IMG/VR virus record: IMGVR_UViG_3300042691_006817
Coordinates: 1 to 34,269 of that record
Reading direction: 5' to 3' (one strand)
Origin: a virus
Length of the DNA stretch: 34,269 bases
The notes under the pieces are model-generated. The model saw nothing but the letters and a program-made list of their open reading frames with translations, did not search any database and was not told where the DNA came from. Positions 9,115 to 18,775 of the stretch are shown here, one piece after another. How positions within the stretch are numbered: position 1 is the stretch's first letter; every line of letters starts with the position of its first letter. The translations under genes were made by a program, and so were the position numbers.

Positions 9115-10026
9115 TCAGCGGGGCTTGCCACGCGTTCCCTCGTAGACGGCTTGGCTGATCTTTCCAGTTCGGTATGCTTCTTCGAGTGCATTGTTCAGCT
9201 CCTTTCTAACCACAGTATGGTTCAACCTGGGCAACTTGTCAAGACCGCTTACAACCCTAGCGTTCCCAGGGCCGCGACTGTTGTCAACAACCATCAAATG
9301 GAATCGGTGGTCATTGCCGTATTTGGCTTGCAGCTTTTCCATAACGTCCCGCACACCCGCATGGGTGCGGAAATGCTCGTCGATAGGAACAGTTCGCCCA
9401 GTTCCCATTTCGGCTTCCATGCGGCTAGCGCGGCTCAAATTGCCGTTTTTCAGGGCTTCCACGGGGTCGCGGTAGGTGTAGACAATACCAACCTTGCGGC
9501 CAGCAGCTAAGGCTTGCTTGACCTTTTTGTCAGCCGATTCAAACGAATTCATGTTGGTGTCGTACACCATTTCAGCGTTTTGAATGCCCTTCGACTGCTG
9601 GGCTGCGGCTTGCAAACTGGTGGTCTTACCGGCACCAGTGCCGCCCGCGGTAAACAGGACAGTGTTGTCCCGCCCAGGCGGCGTCGGCTGCATCAACTTT
9701 TCAGCGTACATTTGCTTCACAAATGCCGACGACGGCTCATGGACATCAGCCGATTTGGTGCGGTCAGCACGGTATTCAGGGGACATTTCGCGGGCATCAT
9801 CCGTGTTTAGGATGCGCCCACCGTCGGTCGACGGTAATGCGGCGTATTCGCGGGCCAGCCCTTGGTAGTCCTGGGACAGCCGGTCAAAATACGATTGCTC
9901 AATCGGATTGCCCGACTGGGCTGGCATATTGGGCTGCGGCACCATTCCCGCCAGGGCGGCTTGGGTGCCGCCCCCAGCAGGGGGCTGCTGGCCCGCTGTG
10001 GCCATTTGCGACAGCGGGATGGCCAT
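9115..10026 (-). CDS. Zeta-toxin-like P-loop kinase
   Basis: The 303-aa protein contains a Walker A FTAGGTGAGKTTSL (126-139) and a preceding ADRTKSADVHEPSS motif (87-100). A later YTYRDPVEAL and a basic RASRM segment match zeta-toxin family kinases. Bacterial zeta toxins phosphorylate UDP-N-acetylglucosamine and block cell-wall synthesis. The first ~45 residues are a low-complexity Gln/Pro/Gly/Ala tail, unlike free toxins. No epsilon-type antitoxin is seen beside it. Being in the morphogenesis block it may be made late and even packaged; whether it inhibits host wall synthesis or aids lysis is unknown. Confidence 0.75.
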   Translation of the reverse strand: MAIPLSQMATAGQQPPAGGGTQAALAGMVPQPNMPAQSGNPIEQSYFDRLSQDYQGLAREYAALPSTDGGRILNTDDAREMSPEYRADRTKSADVHEPSSAFVKQMYAEKLMQPTPPGRDNTVLFTAGGTGAGKTTSLQAAAQQSKGIQNAEMVYDTNMNSFESADKKVKQALAAGRKVGIVYTYRDPVEALKNGNLSRASRMEAEMGTGRTVPIDEHFRTHAGVRDVMEKLQAKYGNDHRFHLMVVDNSRGPGNARVVSGLDKLPRLNHTVVRKELNNALEEAYRTGKISQAVYEGTRGKPR

Positions 10027-10258: not shown

Positions 10259-10618
10259 TCAGTCTAGGAATTTCAGTTTATACAACGTTGAATCAATCAA
10301 TTGGCTGATTTCATCAATAATATTTTGAATTTCGGAATCTTGGGGCAAATCTTCGCGGGTGTCGTCCACAAACTTTTGCATTGTCTTTAGGTATTTCACA
10401 GGATCGGTGCTGGCGTGAAACTCAGACGGATACCTTTTAATCTTGTTGTACCGGCCCTGGTAGGCTTCCGCAAAGTCGTCAGCCAGTTCAATGATGTCCT
10501 CGTAATAATGCCCCAGCGCCTTGTGCGCCGAATACGAATCGGTGGACAGGTGCATAAAATGCGTTACCGTGCTGCTATGCAACAAGGTGGCTATAAATTC
10601 GGCGGCGTCATCATCCAT
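10259..10618 (-). CDS. DUF5856-like ferritin-fold protein
   Basis: The 119-aa helical protein has THFMHLSTDSYSAHKALGHY (about 19-38) followed by EDIIELADDFAEAYQG. This pattern of His, Asp and Glu on long helices resembles Dps/ferritin-like proteins and the phage DUF5856 family. It is the first gene after the terminator at 10635-10664. There is no clear ribosome binding site, and the bases just upstream read TATGAT, 6 nt, ATG. That arrangement could give a leaderless message, although no -35 is evident. Role unknown; DNA protection or virion assembly are guesses. Confidence 0.75.
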   Translation of the reverse strand: MDDDAAEFIATLLHSSTVTHFMHLSTDSYSAHKALGHYYEDIIELADDFAEAYQGRYNKIKRYPSEFHASTDPVKYLKTMQKFVDDTREDLPQDSEIQNIIDEISQLIDSTLYKLKFLD

Positions 10619-14515: not shown

Positions 14516-14674
14516 TTACTCTCTAAACCACTCAGGACGCAAGGCCCGCAGCTGCCAAACCCTAGCCTGGGGAATCGTTTTGCCCCATAGGCTAATGGCT
14601 TGGCGCGTGATCCCCAGCAGCTTTGCCAGGGCGACCGCCGATCCCGCTTTTTCGATTGCTTGCTGTTTGTCCAT
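14516..14674 (-). CDS. cro: Cro-like repressor (52 aa)
   Basis: The product (MDKQQAIEKAGSAVALAKLL...) has a helix-turn-helix spanning about residues 14-34, with GITRQAISLWG as the recognition helix region, and ends RPEWFRE. This is the small Cro/YdaS type that represses divergent early promoters. I prefer the ATG at 14674. A longer frame from 14752 would run through the promoter and operator region. The -10 box TACCAT ends only 6 bases before this ATG and there is no ribosome binding site, so the message may be leaderless. Likely targets are the TTGAC/GTCAA dyads at 14737, 14989 and 15761. Confidence 0.82.
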   Translation of the reverse strand: MDKQQAIEKAGSAVALAKLLGITRQAISLWGKTIPQARVWQLRALRPEWFRE

Positions 14675-14680
14675 GCTCGC

Positions 14681-14709
14681 ATGGTAAGCTAACTTTCGTT
14701 TTTTTGCAA
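14681..14709 (-). promoter_or_regulatory. Leftward early promoter for cro
   Basis: On the minus strand TTGCAA (14709-14704), a 17-base spacer and TACCAT (14686-14681) form a sigma70-like promoter. Initiation 7 bases after the -10 box would fall on the A of the cro ATG at 14674. The GCTTACCAT at the -10 is shared with the rightward promoter at 14989. Confidence 0.65.
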
Positions 14710-14736
14710 CACCCCAAAAATATTTTGAAAGTGTGC

Positions 14737-14765
14737 TTGACATATCGGTCAAGCGGGCTTAACAT
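14737..14765 (+). promoter_or_regulatory. Rightward early promoter 1 with operator dyad
   Basis: Consensus TTGACA (14737-14742), a 17-base spacer and TAACAT (14760-14765). The dyad TTGAC-N6-GTCAA (14737-14752) covers the -35 box. It is the first of three related cassettes and drives the 55-aa gene at 14816. It lies about 28 bp upstream of the cro -35 box. Confidence 0.75.
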
Positions 14766-14787
14766 GGGAACCGTACTAAATGACAAC

Positions 14788-14799
14788 GCCCGCAAGGGT
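14788..14799 (+). promoter_or_regulatory. Leader hairpin 1
   Basis: GCCC-GCAA-GGGT forms a 4-bp stem (last pair G-U) with a GNRA tetraloop. It is followed by CTTTTA and the AAGGA ribosome binding site of the 14816 gene. The same leader layout occurs at 15027 and 15799. Confidence 0.55.
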
Positions 14800-14815
14800 C
14801 TTTTAAGGAAAAAAA

Positions 14816-14983
14816 ATGGAAAATCAAACACTCATCCCAAACGCAAACTGGCAGACCCAGCAACGCGGAACCAATGACCAGGAATATCAAATTTACCTGG
14901 TTTGTGCAGATAACGGTCAAGGTGGCGATATTACTCGCAACGGTGCGCCTTTGTTGACTTATAACCAATGGTTGGCCGCATAA
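14816..14983 (+). CDS. Small early protein (55 aa)
   Basis: The 55-aa product starts MENQTLIPNANWQTQQRGTN and contains the segment EYQIYLVCADNGQGGDI, with predicted short beta strands. AAGGA lies 6 bases before the ATG. It is the first gene of the rightward operon, directly under early promoter 1, and ends 5 bases before promoter 2. No family recognised. Its position suggests an immediate-early regulator or host-takeover protein, which is inference. Confidence 0.75.
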   Translation: MENQTLIPNANWQTQQRGTNDQEYQIYLVCADNGQGGDITRNGAPLLTYNQWLAA

Positions 14984-14988
14984 ATTTG

Positions 14989-15018
14989 TTGACAGCCAGC
15001 GTCAAGCTGGCTTACCAT
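14989..15018 (+). promoter_or_regulatory. Rightward early promoter 2 with two overlapping dyads
   Basis: TTGACA (14989-14994), an 18-base spacer and TACCAT (15013-15018). A 17-bp dyad TTGAC-N7-GTCAA (14989-15005) covers the -35 box. A second perfect dyad, AGCCAGC-gtcaa-GCTGGCT (14994-15012), fills the spacer. A 29-base stretch is identical to promoter 3. It drives the LPD29 gene. Confidence 0.8.
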
Positions 15019-15026
15019 TTGTCCAT

Positions 15027-15038
15027 GCCCTAACGGGT
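15027..15038 (+). promoter_or_regulatory. Leader hairpin 2
   Basis: GCCC-TAAC-GGGT, same position and stem as leader hairpin 1, followed by CTTTTACGAAAGGA, which carries the ribosome binding site of the gene at 15060. Confidence 0.5.
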
Positions 15039-15059
15039 CTTTTACGAAAGGAAGTCCAA

Positions 15060-15647
15060 ATGTCCAAGCAATATCTCTCCTGCGCTGACACTGCCAAACT
15101 GGTTCGTGCCGCGCTCAAAGAATCATTCCCAGGCGTCAAGTTCAGCGTCCGCAGCAGCGTGTACAGTGGCGGCGCCAGCATCAATGTGTCCTACACCGAC
15201 GGCCCGTCCTACGATCAGGTCAAAGGCATTGTCGGCGCGTTTGAAGGCAGCTACTTTGATGGTATGACCGATTACAAGGGCAGCAACTACGGCAGCCTAG
15301 ACGGTCAGGAAGTGCGGTTTGGCGCTGACTTTATTTTTGTCAACAGGCAAATTTCTGCGCCAATGTTGACCAGGGCCGCCAGCTTTGTTTTGAACTACTT
15401 TGGCCTGGACAATGAAGTGACCATCGACAGCGGCAACAAGTACAGCGGCGCGTACATCAAGTCGGTCAACAACCTGGCCGCCAGTGAAGCGCGGGGTTTT
15501 AGTGCTTACGAAATTCAGCGCAGAATTAATGAGGAAGCCAGCAAGTACAGCATGGACGACGCCGCAGAAAGCGCCACGCTCAAGCGGGTGGCGTTCCTGG
15601 GTGACGATGGATACGGTTACGGCGCCGTTGGCCGGATTGCAGCATAA
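15060..15647 (+). CDS. LPD29-domain protein
   Basis: The 195-aa product matches Large Polyvalent Protein Associated Domain 29 over about residues 5-75. It has YLSCADTAKLVRAALKESFP followed by VKFSVRSSVYSGGASINVSY, a TDGPSYDQVKGIVGAFEG segment and FDGMTD. The remainder (80-195) is less conserved and helical. LPD29 occurs alone or within polyvalent proteins of phages and conjugative elements, and its biochemical role is not known; counter-defence or replication have been considered in general for such domains. It has its own promoter (14989) and an AAAGGA ribosome binding site. Confidence 0.85.
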   Translation: MSKQYLSCADTAKLVRAALKESFPGVKFSVRSSVYSGGASINVSYTDGPSYDQVKGIVGAFEGSYFDGMTDYKGSNYGSLDGQEVRFGADFIFVNRQISAPMLTRAASFVLNYFGLDNEVTIDSGNKYSGAYIKSVNNLAASEARGFSAYEIQRRINEEASKYSMDDAAESATLKRVAFLGDDGYGYGAVGRIAA

Positions 15648-15657
15648 GGGGAAAATC

Positions 15658-15756
15658 ATGGATCAAGACCCAAAAGACTGGCAAATCATCCTTATGGCCA
15701 TCATTGCAGCACCGTGCCTTTTTGTGCTGCTGTGGGTTGCAATGGCTTTGTTTTAA
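15658..15756 (+). CDS. Tiny membrane protein (32 aa)
   Basis: The 32-aa product (MDQDPKDWQIILMAIIAAPC...) has an acidic N-terminus and one hydrophobic helix from about residue 9 to 32, so it would insert with the N-terminus in the cytoplasm or as a C-tail anchor. AGGGGAAAATC precedes the ATG. It lies between the LPD29 gene and promoter 3. No family recognised. Confidence 0.6.
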   Translation: MDQDPKDWQIILMAIIAAPCLFVLLWVAMALF

Positions 15757-15760
15757 TGTG

Positions 15761-15790
15761 TTGACAGCCAGCGTCAAGCTGGCTTACAAT
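15761..15790 (+). promoter_or_regulatory. Rightward early promoter 3 with two overlapping dyads
   Basis: TTGACA (15761-15766), an 18-base spacer and TACAAT (15785-15790), the best -10 of the three cassettes. The same 17-bp (15761-15777) and 19-bp (15766-15784) dyads as in promoter 2 are present without change. It drives 15831 and probably the whole recombination operon downstream. Confidence 0.82.
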
Positions 15791-15798
15791 CAAACCAT

Positions 15799-15810
15799 GC
15801 CGGAAACGGT
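15799..15810 (+). promoter_or_regulatory. Leader hairpin 3 (compensatory stem change)
   Basis: GCCG-GAAA-CGGT keeps the stem of the other two leaders while changing one pair from C-G to G-C, and has a GNRA loop. It is followed by CTATTACGAAAGGA and the ATG at 15831. The paired change argues that RNA structure is maintained. Confidence 0.55.
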
Positions 15811-15830
15811 CTATTACGAAAGGAATCAAA

Positions 15831-16031
15831 ATGAATGCAAATCAAATTGCCGCCTTCCCAAACGCCGAATATGGCGTCACTTCCCTGGTCACCAAAATTT
15901 CTAAAGGTTACGCCGTCACGCTGATTGACGACGACGCGGAACTGGCTGTTGGATACGTGACCATCTATCCGTTCAACATGATGGCCCAGGCCATTAACTA
16001 CGCAAAGCAAATTGCAGGGGTGCCAGCATGA
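15831..16031 (+). CDS. Small early protein (66 aa)
   Basis: The 66-aa product (MNANQIAAFPNAEYGVTSLV...) shows a beta-rich first half with DDDAELAVGYVTIYP, then a short helix. It follows promoter 3 with AAAGGA as ribosome binding site and overlaps the next gene by 4 bases (ATGA). No family recognised; it is the first gene of the recombination operon and may regulate or assist it. Confidence 0.75.
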   Translation: MNANQIAAFPNAEYGVTSLVTKISKGYAVTLIDDDAELAVGYVTIYPFNMMAQAINYAKQIAGVPA

Positions 16032-16189
16032 AATTAAAACTTCGCTCTGTCAAACCGGTAGACGATCTGCCGGTTTTTAATATTCTGGATCGGCGCTTCA
16101 AATACGTGCCAGCGTCCAAAACCAACATCCTGAAACGTTTTCGCGCCATGGGCTGGGTGCCACCGTCCGAACGCAAAATCATCGCATAA
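16028..16189 (+). CDS. Small basic early protein (53 aa)
   Basis: The product (MKLKLRSVKPVDDLPVFNIL...) is strongly basic, with VPASKTNILKRFRAMGWVPP near the C-terminus. The pattern suggests a small nucleic-acid-binding domain. It overlaps the previous gene by 4 bases and precedes ERF by 15 bases. No family recognised. Confidence 0.7.
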   Translation: MKLKLRSVKPVDDLPVFNILDRRFKYVPASKTNILKRFRAMGWVPPSERKIIA

Positions 16190-16204: not shown

Positions 16205-16819
16205 ATGGAAAATTCATTCACTAAAGTTGCGGCGGCATTTGTCAAAGCCCAAAAGGAATTTGGCCCTGCGCTCAAATCCGCAATTAATCCAGCGTTTCAA
16301 AGAAACGGCAAAGGTGGCCGTTATGCTGACCTGGCCGCTTGTGTTGAAGCGGTTATTGATGCGCTCAACAATAACGGCATTGCTTTGACCCAGCGCCTTA
16401 GTCCATGCGACAACGGCGTTATTATTGAAACCGTGTTTATTCACGAATCGGGCGAAGTAATGACCAGCGGCCAACTACACGTACCAGCCGCCAAACAAGA
16501 CCCCCAGGGTTACGGCAGCGCCTTAACCTACGCCCGCAGATACAGCCTGATGGCGGCTTGTGGCATCGCCCCTGAAGACGACGACGGCAACGCAGCAAGC
16601 GGAAAACCAACCCCGCCCGCGGCACCGGTGCCAGACATTACCGACCATTTGTCAGCCATTGAAGCCAGCGCCAACAGTGAAGAATTGGCCACCGTGTACG
16701 CCGCAGCCATCAACGCTTGCCAGGGTAATCAGCAGCTTCAGACCAAAGTAATAGCCGCCAAAAAAGCCCGCATTGAACGCGCAAAAAAGGAAAAAGCAAA
16801 TGAAAAACAAGGAAATTAA
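16205..16819 (+). CDS. erf: ERF-family single-strand annealing protein
   Basis: The 204-aa protein belongs to the ERF superfamily of phage recombinases (P22 Erf), which coat ssDNA and promote annealing. Family segments include INPAFQRNGKGGRYADLAAC (about 28-47), a GSALTYARRYSLMAACGI motif (about 102-119) and EDDDGNAA just after it. The C-terminus after residue 125 is a Pro/Ala linker and a Lys-rich helix that probably mediates oligomer or partner contacts. It pairs with the YqaJ exonuclease downstream as a Red-like two-component system, with a small coiled-coil gene between. Confidence 0.93.
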   Translation: MENSFTKVAAAFVKAQKEFGPALKSAINPAFQRNGKGGRYADLAACVEAVIDALNNNGIALTQRLSPCDNGVIIETVFIHESGEVMTSGQLHVPAAKQDPQGYGSALTYARRYSLMAACGIAPEDDDGNAASGKPTPPAAPVPDITDHLSAIEASANSEELATVYAAAINACQGNQQLQTKVIAAKKARIERAKKEKANEKQGN

Positions 16820-17015
16820 AGCACTCGAAAAAGAATACAACGAAACGGTTGAAAAAGGCCGCGAGTTGTGGGATCAACTTATTCCAATGGCCAATCGTTG
16901 CAATGAAATTATAAAAATACTCCGCGACAACAAAATTGAATTTGATGAAATTGCGTTAATTTTTGGTGGCGAATTGGAAATTGAAACCGCAGGTAAAGAT
17001 GAGGACAATTATTAA
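16800..17015 (+). CDS. Small acidic coiled-coil protein (71 aa)
   Basis: I chose the ATG at 16800 (MKNKEIKALEKEYNETVEKG...), preceded by AAAAGGA; an upstream in-frame start would lie within the ERF gene. The product is a long helix with heptads over residues 4-50, then an acidic end (ETAGKDEDNY). It overlaps ERF by 20 bases and the exonuclease by 1 (TAATG). Sitting between annealing protein and exonuclease, it might bridge them; that is a guess from context. Confidence 0.7.
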   Translation: MKNKEIKALEKEYNETVEKGRELWDQLIPMANRCNEIIKILRDNKIEFDEIALIFGGELEIETAGKDEDNY

Positions 17016-17641
17016 TGGATAACATTGAACAACGTACTCATAACTGGTTTACCGCCCGCCTGGGCAAAGTAACCGCCAGCAGCTTGCACAAAGTGCTGGC
17101 CCGCACCAAAACCGGTTACGGCGCCGACCGCGCCAATTACCTGACCCAGCTGGTGCTGGAACGCGTCACCAACAGCAAGGCCGAAGGCTACATCAACGCC
17201 GAAATGCAATGGGGCATTGACCAGGAACCATTCGCACGGGCAGCCTACGAAGCCCACACGGGCGTTTTGGTCGACGAAGTAGGGTTTATGCCACACCCGA
17301 CAATTGAAATGTCTGGTGCCTCGCCTGACGGCTTGGTGGGCGATTCTGGCATGGTTGAGATTAAATGCCCCAGCAGCAAAACCGCCCTGGAATGCTGGTT
17401 GTCGGATGTTCCGGTCGAATCCAAGTATTTTGCTCAAATGCAGTGGCAAATGGCTTGCGCTGACCGCAAATGGTGCGACTACGTGGTGTTCGACCCGCGG
17501 ATGCCGCAAAAGGCCCAGCTATTCATTCACCGCGTCAACCGTGACAACGAATGGCTGGCCACCACCGAAAAGGAAGTCGTAAAGTTTTTGGCTGAAGTCG
17601 ATGCCAAAGTTGCAGCACTCAGAAAAATCATTGGGGAATAA
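17015..17641 (+). CDS. YqaJ-type (lambda exonuclease-like) recombination nuclease
   Basis: The 208-aa product is a PD-(D/E)XK alkaline exonuclease of the YqaJ/lambda-Exo family, which resects dsDNA 5' ends to give ssDNA for the ERF protein. Visible active-site residues are E71 in WGIDQEPFARAAYE, D105 in GASPDGLVG, E115 and K117 in VEIKCPSS, and Q141 in YFAQMQWQM. Length fits the family (lambda Exo is 226 aa). It is followed after 3 bases by the SSB-like gene. Confidence 0.93.
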   Translation: MDNIEQRTHNWFTARLGKVTASSLHKVLARTKTGYGADRANYLTQLVLERVTNSKAEGYINAEMQWGIDQEPFARAAYEAHTGVLVDEVGFMPHPTIEMSGASPDGLVGDSGMVEIKCPSSKTALECWLSDVPVESKYFAQMQWQMACADRKWCDYVVFDPRMPQKAQLFIHRVNRDNEWLATTEKEVVKFLAEVDAKVAALRKIIGE

Positions 17642-18283: not shown

Positions 18284-18775
18284 TTAAATTTGTTTTGCAA
18301 ACTGGCCGAAATATTGCATTTCGGCTTTTTTTCTTGCGGCAATTGCTTCTTCTTTAGTGTTAAACAAACCCAAATTATTGTTTTTACGGTTAAGCATAAT
18401 TTGTGCAAACCATTTTTTTGCTTTTGCATGATAACTAACGCCAGTAACTCCTGACGTATTGTTTTTGCTCAATTTGCAATTTCTAGAATTTTCAGCATTG
18501 CTGGCAAGTCGCAAATTTTCAATGCGATTGTCCAATCGATTACCATTAATGTGGTCAATTTGTTGATCTGGCATTTGGCCATAAAACAAAGCCCAAACAA
18601 CACGATGCGCTCTATATTGCTTGCCATCAAAACAAACTCGGCCATAGCCTTTGCTGTCAATATTGGCACCGCAAAGCGCACCGGATTTTGTCCGATTGCT
18701 TAAAACTTTTTTCCAAATTAAAACACCAGTAACGGGGTCATAATGTATAAATTCTTGCAACTTTTGAATGTTCAT
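18284..18775 (-). CDS. HNH/AP2 homing-type endonuclease (163 aa)
   Basis: The HNH core lies at about residues 53-95: H57 in RAHRVVW, then QQIDHINGNRLDNRIENLRL with D74-H75, N78, N83 and N87. An AP2-like DNA-binding domain follows at about 105-150 (SGVTGVSYHAKAKKWFAQ) and the end YFGQFAKQI is typical of the group. Its base composition is visibly A+T-richer than neighbours, as expected of a mobile gene. It sits between the lysis genes and the convergent early operon, with a possible own promoter and a hairpin at the start codon. It also carries the rightward terminator (18305-18332). Confidence 0.92.
   Translation of the reverse strand: MNIQKLQEFIHYDPVTGVLIWKKVLSNRTKSGALCGANIDSKGYGRVCFDGKQYRAHRVVWALFYGQMPDQQIDHINGNRLDNRIENLRLASNAENSRNCKLSKNNTSGVTGVSYHAKAKKWFAQIMLNRKNNNLGLFNTKEEAIAARKKAEMQYFGQFAKQI
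18305..18332 (+). terminator. Rightward intrinsic terminator embedded in the HNH gene
   Basis: GCCGAAAT (18305-18312), a 5-base loop and ATTTCGGC (18318-18325) form a perfect 8-bp stem, followed by seven T residues on the plus strand. It lies 23 bases past the stop of the winged-helix gene and inside codons 148-157 of the opposite-strand HNH gene. It would end the rightward early operon. No T-run follows the stem on the minus strand, so it is one-directional. Confidence 0.85.

Follow-up and report, generated by a model that had tools for sequence, protein, structure and literature searches.

Repeated promoter cassettes with candidate Cro-type operators as putative recombination joints in the early operon of a P22-like podophage

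Analysis of a 34,269-nucleotide virus record (IMG/VR IMGVR_UViG_3300042691_006817, positions 1 to 34,269; hereafter the window, meaning this whole stretch at its full length) revealed three rightward promoter cassettes in the early operon of a P22-like podophage, and comparison with relatives suggested that a single 52-aa protein of the P22 Cro family very probably controls all of them. At a probability of roughly 0.8, we favor a model of Cro-type self-control in which operators lie in all cassettes, the cassettes act as joints, and hairpins form in read-through RNA.

The 34-kb contig carries P22-like portal, scaffold, coat, head-closure, and ejection genes, consistent with a P22-like podophage (a water phage). 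Its rightward early operon encodes, downstream of the cassettes, an Erf-type single-strand annealing protein (16205 to 16819, + strand; Pfam ERF, PHROG 2324) and a YqaJ-type recombination exonuclease (17015 to 17641, +; profile matches), and HNH, replication, and NinB-type genes are read leftward. Neither an integrase nor an HTH_3-type CI (C2-type) repressor was found in the sampled record, which is possibly incomplete. The gene for a 195-aa LPD29-domain protein (15060 to 15647, +; Pfam LPD29, E = 8e-25) served as the marker by which 80 relatives were fetched. A megablast search with the region found nothing among named phages, and tblastn with the LPD29 protein found just three distant matches, and none in genome_contigs, so that no named host or cultured relative emerged. 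Moreover, Rfam had no match within 14600 to 16100, and the small genes had no match among defence families. Several ORFs on the minus strand were also recorded: a 163-aa HNH-type ORF (18284 to 18775) that lies where the rightward early operon ends, on the other strand, and looks homing-endonuclease-like by eye, a 119-aa ORF (10259 to 10618) assigned to PHROG 858, starvation-inducible transcriptional regulator (E = 1.8e-28), and a 303-aa ORF (9115 to 10026) with a GxxxxGKT nucleotide-binding motif (TAGGTGAGKTTS) that resembles a zeta-toxin kinase by eye and has no PHROG match.

Three promoter cassettes and their leaders

Promoters P1 (14737 to 14765, +; TTGACA-17-TAACAT), P2 (14989 to 15018, +; TTGACA-18-TACCAT), and P3 (15761 to 15790, +; TTGACA-18-TACAAT) start exactly where the original prediction had placed three rightward TTGACA promoters. 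In a mechanical scan of 4 kb, they were the top three sigma-70-type matches (10 to 11 of 12 positions), with nine sites found in total against 4.1 expected. P3 occurs at the same place in relatives L006, L007, and L008, and P2 is absent from its place in L006 and L008. The longest stretch shared by cassettes 2 and 3 is exactly the 29 bases that had been claimed, TGTTGACAGCCAGCGTCAAGCTGGCTTAC. P3 is preceded by the gene for a 32-aa membrane-like small protein (family F7; 15659 to 15757, +), which is kept in relatives, and is followed by a 66-aa gene (family F3; 15831 to 16031, +), in whose slot L006 and L008 have other genes.

A leader hairpin and a Shine-Dalgarno sequence stand behind each promoter, again as predicted: CCC-GCAA-GGG (14789 to 14798, +) followed by AAGGA in cassette 1, CCC-UAAC-GGG (15028 to 15037, +) followed by AAAGGA in cassette 2, and CCG-GAAA-CGG (15800 to 15809, +) followed by AAAGGA in cassette 3. 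Among relatives, the pairing is kept and the sequence varies (CCC/GGG, CCG/CGG, CCGC/GCGG), with caps that are often UNAC or GAAA, and the stems have only 3 to 6 pairs. In a shuffle test, pairing was scored in 70 of 106, a figure that is too low, as the parse of the third pair is ambiguous where four G residues follow. Each rightward cassette would thus be a complete expression start with its own 5' leader, made of the short hairpin and the Shine-Dalgarno sequence. A leader mini-ORF (AUG CCC stop, with all three stop codons occurring) was dropped, since other leaders read CCC UCA, CCC CAG, or CCG GAA. The sequence GGUCUUUUAA, which stands after the leader hairpin, was also considered as a possible boxA-like element. 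A transposon-like origin was ruled out, because the cassettes occur only before early genes.

Candidate operators and the 52-aa Cro-type protein

The element kept by relatives between the -35 and -10 boxes is the palindrome AAG-N4-CTT (TTAAGCNNGCTTAA), and an alignment of their first promoters showed TTAAG-C-NN-G-CTTAA at this position in nearly all. The window carries this core in cassette 1 (TCAAGCGGGCTTAA, 14749 to 14762) and, with 8 of 10 matches to TTAAG-N4-CTTAA, in cassettes 2 and 3 (TCAAGCTGGCTTAC, 15002 to 15015 and 15774 to 15787). Two further candidate operators, each with 7 of 10 matches, overlap the -35 box of P1 (GAAAGTGTGCTTGA, 14727 to 14740; position kept in relatives) and the -10 box of the gene for the 52-aa HTH protein (GTAAGCTAACTTTC, 14684 to 14697). 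Five AAG-N4-CTT sites are thereby found within 1.1 kb and one elsewhere in the 34 kb, where 3.5 would be expected over the whole length; the latter site (9239 to 9252) lies inside the frame of the kinase-like gene described above, with neighbors conserved as coding sequence, and was not counted. Relatives have 5.7 such sites per kb between the HTH and LPD29 genes and 0.26 per kb elsewhere, an approximately twentyfold difference in which the "elsewhere" count takes in the downstream cassettes. The motif is also matched by the annotated OR and OL operators of phage ES18, which has P22 immunity and carries Cro and C2 of the P22 type. Five relatives (L082, L084, L085, L028, and L036) have a similar HTH protein, yet few or weak operator sites.

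The 52-aa protein (14516 to 14674, - strand) matched Pfam P22_Cro with 44.8 bits (cut-off, 30.2), PHROG 409 (transcriptional regulator), and the P22 Cro structure PDB 1rzs (E = 0.001), and is presumed to repress both the cassettes and itself. Its gene has a leftward promoter (14681 to 14709, -; TTGCAA-17-TACCAT) whose -10 box ends 6 nt before the ATG, a spacing that almost every one of about 50 distinct relatives shares, so that the mRNA is probably leaderless. The lambda cI mRNA made from PRM is likewise leaderless. Made leftward from this promoter, the protein would bind the P22-type operators as a dimer. These overlap the spacer and -10 box of the leftward promoter and of its three rightward counterparts, a further site lying upstream of P1, and by binding them the protein would shut off itself together with the early recombination operon.

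Relatives with the P22_Cro-type recognition helix TR(Q/A)A(I/V)S-W carry the AAG-N4-CTT operator. L046 and L074 encode a clearly different HTH protein, with the recognition helix KQSVVSNW, and have TCAC-N4-GTGA, with the same gap, both at the leftward promoter and in their first and second cassettes; the -35 box, leader hairpin, and Shine-Dalgarno sequence are retained. This coordinated swap, which counts as one evolutionary event since L046 and L074 are closely related contigs, strongly supports the pairing of HTH protein and operator and is the best nonexperimental evidence that the divergent HTH protein may control all cassettes. In addition, the distant relative L058 has two different repeated promoters before and behind LPD29 (4926 and 5570), with TTGACA-TTGTCAA and then GTTGAGATAATCTCAAC at the -10 box, possibly the same design with another operator.

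The original prediction had one small repressor acting on three promoters through dispersed operators, and this idea is sustained by the P22_Cro-type protein, by sites at all three promoters over about 1 kb, and by the swap in L046 and L074. The operator that it named, TTGAC-N6/7-GTCAA over the -35 box, could not be upheld. This sequence is present in all three window cassettes, with the half-sites unequally spaced (N6 in cassette 1, N7 in cassettes 2 and 3). Of 75 distinct cassette cores only 4 contain it, and relatives whose HTH proteins are nearly identical have GTTAA or GTAAA in place of GTCAA. Moreover, TTGAC is the -35 box itself, and GTCAA arises where the operator GTTAAG reads GTCAAG, all of which makes it scarcely credible that the Cro-like protein recognizes this dyad. 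It is also very unlikely that AAG-N4-CTTANNAT is a mere promoter feature, a spacer or extended -10 element kept for RNA polymerase. The overlap of the element with the -10 box in every cassette would suit such a role, but the element is palindromic, occurs also upstream of P1 at a site without a -10 box, matches known P22-type operators, and, in the phages that have another HTH protein, gives way at all three places to another palindrome that keeps the N4 gap.

Gene exchange at the cassettes and the AGCC dyad

Seven pairs of relatives were found to differ by one small gene plus a cassette (in the L053 pair, plus hairpin and leader only), and in each pair the homology ended either within the leader or at the start codon. 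For instance, L076 differs from the closely related L075 by an inserted 73-aa gene and cassette, the break falling within the leader (GGGGTCTATTT / AGGAAATCAAAATG), and the L053 unit consists of a GGGGCC/GGCCCC hairpin and a leader, without a promoter. The order in the window is cassette 1, 55-aa gene, cassette 2, and LPD29, and that in L006 is cassette 1 and LPD29. The original prediction had counted on close relatives with the same genes also keeping the cassettes; this holds for cassettes 1 and 3 in L006 and L008, and cassette 2 is missing from both together with the 55-aa gene (14816 to 14983, +), a joint absence that points to the gain of a module and not to an artefact. Homologues of this gene occupy other slots in L010 and in L016/L017 (88 to 89% identity for those of L010 and L016), the 73-aa family precedes LPD29 in L015 and follows it in others, and the gene orders behind the cassettes differ among relatives. 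Family F15 (L015, L061, L062, L072, L076, L028, L031, and L036) comprises proteins of 72 to 73 aa whose N-terminal part varies and whose C-terminal end is almost invariant (S.YDIALSGGEPYSVW).

These differences suggest that homologous recombination in the leader may insert or remove a unit of one small gene and the next cassette, whereby the newcomer would take the resident promoter and the old gene would receive the new cassette; cassette 2 and the 55-aa gene would be one such unit. Erf may drive this recombination, considering its place in the operon. A tandem duplication giving rise to extra cassettes, with gene content drifting independently and without any role as joints, is improbable: the 29 identical bases make it quite plausible that cassette 2 has its promoter half from cassette 3, but in the seven pairs a whole unit of gene and cassette (or gene, hairpin, and leader) is either there or missing, its junctions lie in the leader, and the inserted genes are found in other slots elsewhere. 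Taking the joints together with the control circuit, we lean modestly toward an operator-bearing mobile cassette that unites promoter, operator, RNA boundary hairpin, leader, and Shine-Dalgarno sequence in one joint, so that a gained gene would come under the repressor in the same step and a change of repressor would entail a common change of all cassette operators.

The boundary hairpin is the probable role of a second dyad, AGCCAGC-N5-GCTGGCT, which had been predicted for cassettes 2 and 3 and occurs there (14994 to 15012 and 15766 to 15784) and not in cassette 1. The predicted fold in cassette 2 has about -13 kcal/mol, and the dyad of cassette 3 likewise has a predicted fold and co-variation. 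A search that left both inner dinucleotides free found complementary arms in 21 of 23 distinct AGCC cassettes, with four pair types (AG/CT, CG/CG, CA/TG, and AA/TT); shuffled arms gave a mean of 7.4 and a maximum of 16, a contrast that is inflated by relatedness. As RNA, these cassettes averaged about -12 kcal/mol, versus about -3 kcal/mol in other cassettes. Moreover, the dyad is a feature of internal cassettes (9 of 38, versus 1 of 41 first cassettes, the lone exception, L051, being internal on inspection) and usually starts a few bases past the stop codon that ends the preceding gene. Judged from these alignments, it appears to be no operator of fixed sequence, its arms changing in step as in a base-paired hairpin, and internal cassettes of this type, including 2 and 3, would form an RNA hairpin behind the previous gene's stop codon in read-through transcripts. 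The absence of a U run after it speaks against a role as a strong terminator.

A less favored reading of the AGCC dyad, as a second operator at the DNA level or as a palindrome maintained through template-switch mutation, still deserves some weight, since the arms lie inside the promoter and templated mutation can perfect palindromes without selection. Unlike in a protein site, however, the arm sequence varies while the pairing is kept across four complementary types, and, where T opposite G closes the loop, this pair forms only as RNA (G-U). The restriction to internal cassettes, which are read through, and the promoterless GGGGCC/GGCCCC-type hairpin at the same place in L053/L118, L100, and L105 also argue for the RNA hairpin. 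The leaders in which such a hairpin replaces the promoter lie at -90 to -1 from LPD29 in L053 (identical in L118), at about 600 (-) in L100, and at about 8680 (-) in L105.

Comparison with known systems

Dispersed operators are already known from the stoperators of cluster A mycobacteriophages (L5 type), where one repressor has many sites across the genome (PMC9283540). The stoperator is an asymmetric 13-mer to which a monomer binds, and many of these sites are intergenic and serve to stop elongation (PMC9283540). The phage described here would share with them the principle of one repressor and dispersed sites, and differs in its palindromic sites at the promoter -10 box and its 52-aa single-HTH regulator, as opposed to asymmetric sites and a monomeric two-domain repressor. 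It offers a natural case in which a repressor and its operators at several dispersed places have changed in concert; how many sites can change at once is a long-standing puzzle in the evolution of immunity specificity, which recombination might solve by homogenizing the cassettes.

With OR and OL of P22 and ES18, the cassettes have in common an operator core, TTAAG-N4-CTTAA, that overlaps early promoters, and a Cro of the same Pfam family. The sites lie here one per promoter over 1 kb, whereas those of P22 and ES18 are clustered in OR and OL (tripartite and shared with C2/CI). In further contrast to these phages, the Cro-family gene is transcribed from the would-be PRM position, and its transcript is probably leaderless; the C2-type repressor and integrase, as noted, did not turn up in the possibly incomplete record.

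The SAS/ESAS elements of cluster K mycobacteriophages are repeats before the start codons of various gene families, with a Shine-Dalgarno-like part and upstream inverted repeats (PMC3203893). The ESAS inverted repeats are 17 bp long, and PMC3203893 shows no link to a regulator. The present cassettes resemble them in standing before the starts of different gene families and in having a Shine-Dalgarno-like part and upstream inverted repeats, and the sequence differs.

Of the known systems, the PeSL cassette of T4-like phages, reportedly described by Arbiol et al. in 2010 and by Comeau et al. in 2014, comes closest. PeSLs are short repeats, each with a strong sigma-70-type promoter and a stem-loop, that lie between small early genes and mediate gene gain, loss, and shuffling (PMC4503421). 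Both features recur here, namely, a repeated strong sigma-70-type promoter between small early genes and gene shuffling that appears to proceed by recombination at the cassettes, as judged from the leader junctions in seven pairs. A limited search of the open literature found no description of a joint that shuffles genes and also contains an operator for the Cro-type protein of the phage itself. With such a joint, which brings its own repressor-controlled start, a small phage could take up genes while its control circuit stays undisturbed. In contrast to PeSLs of T4-like phages, the cassettes belong to a 34-kb P22-like podophage, carry a leader hairpin and Shine-Dalgarno sequence with the crossovers there, and have their AGCC hairpin within the promoter and not beside it, and each promoter has a putative operator for the phage's own Cro-type repressor.
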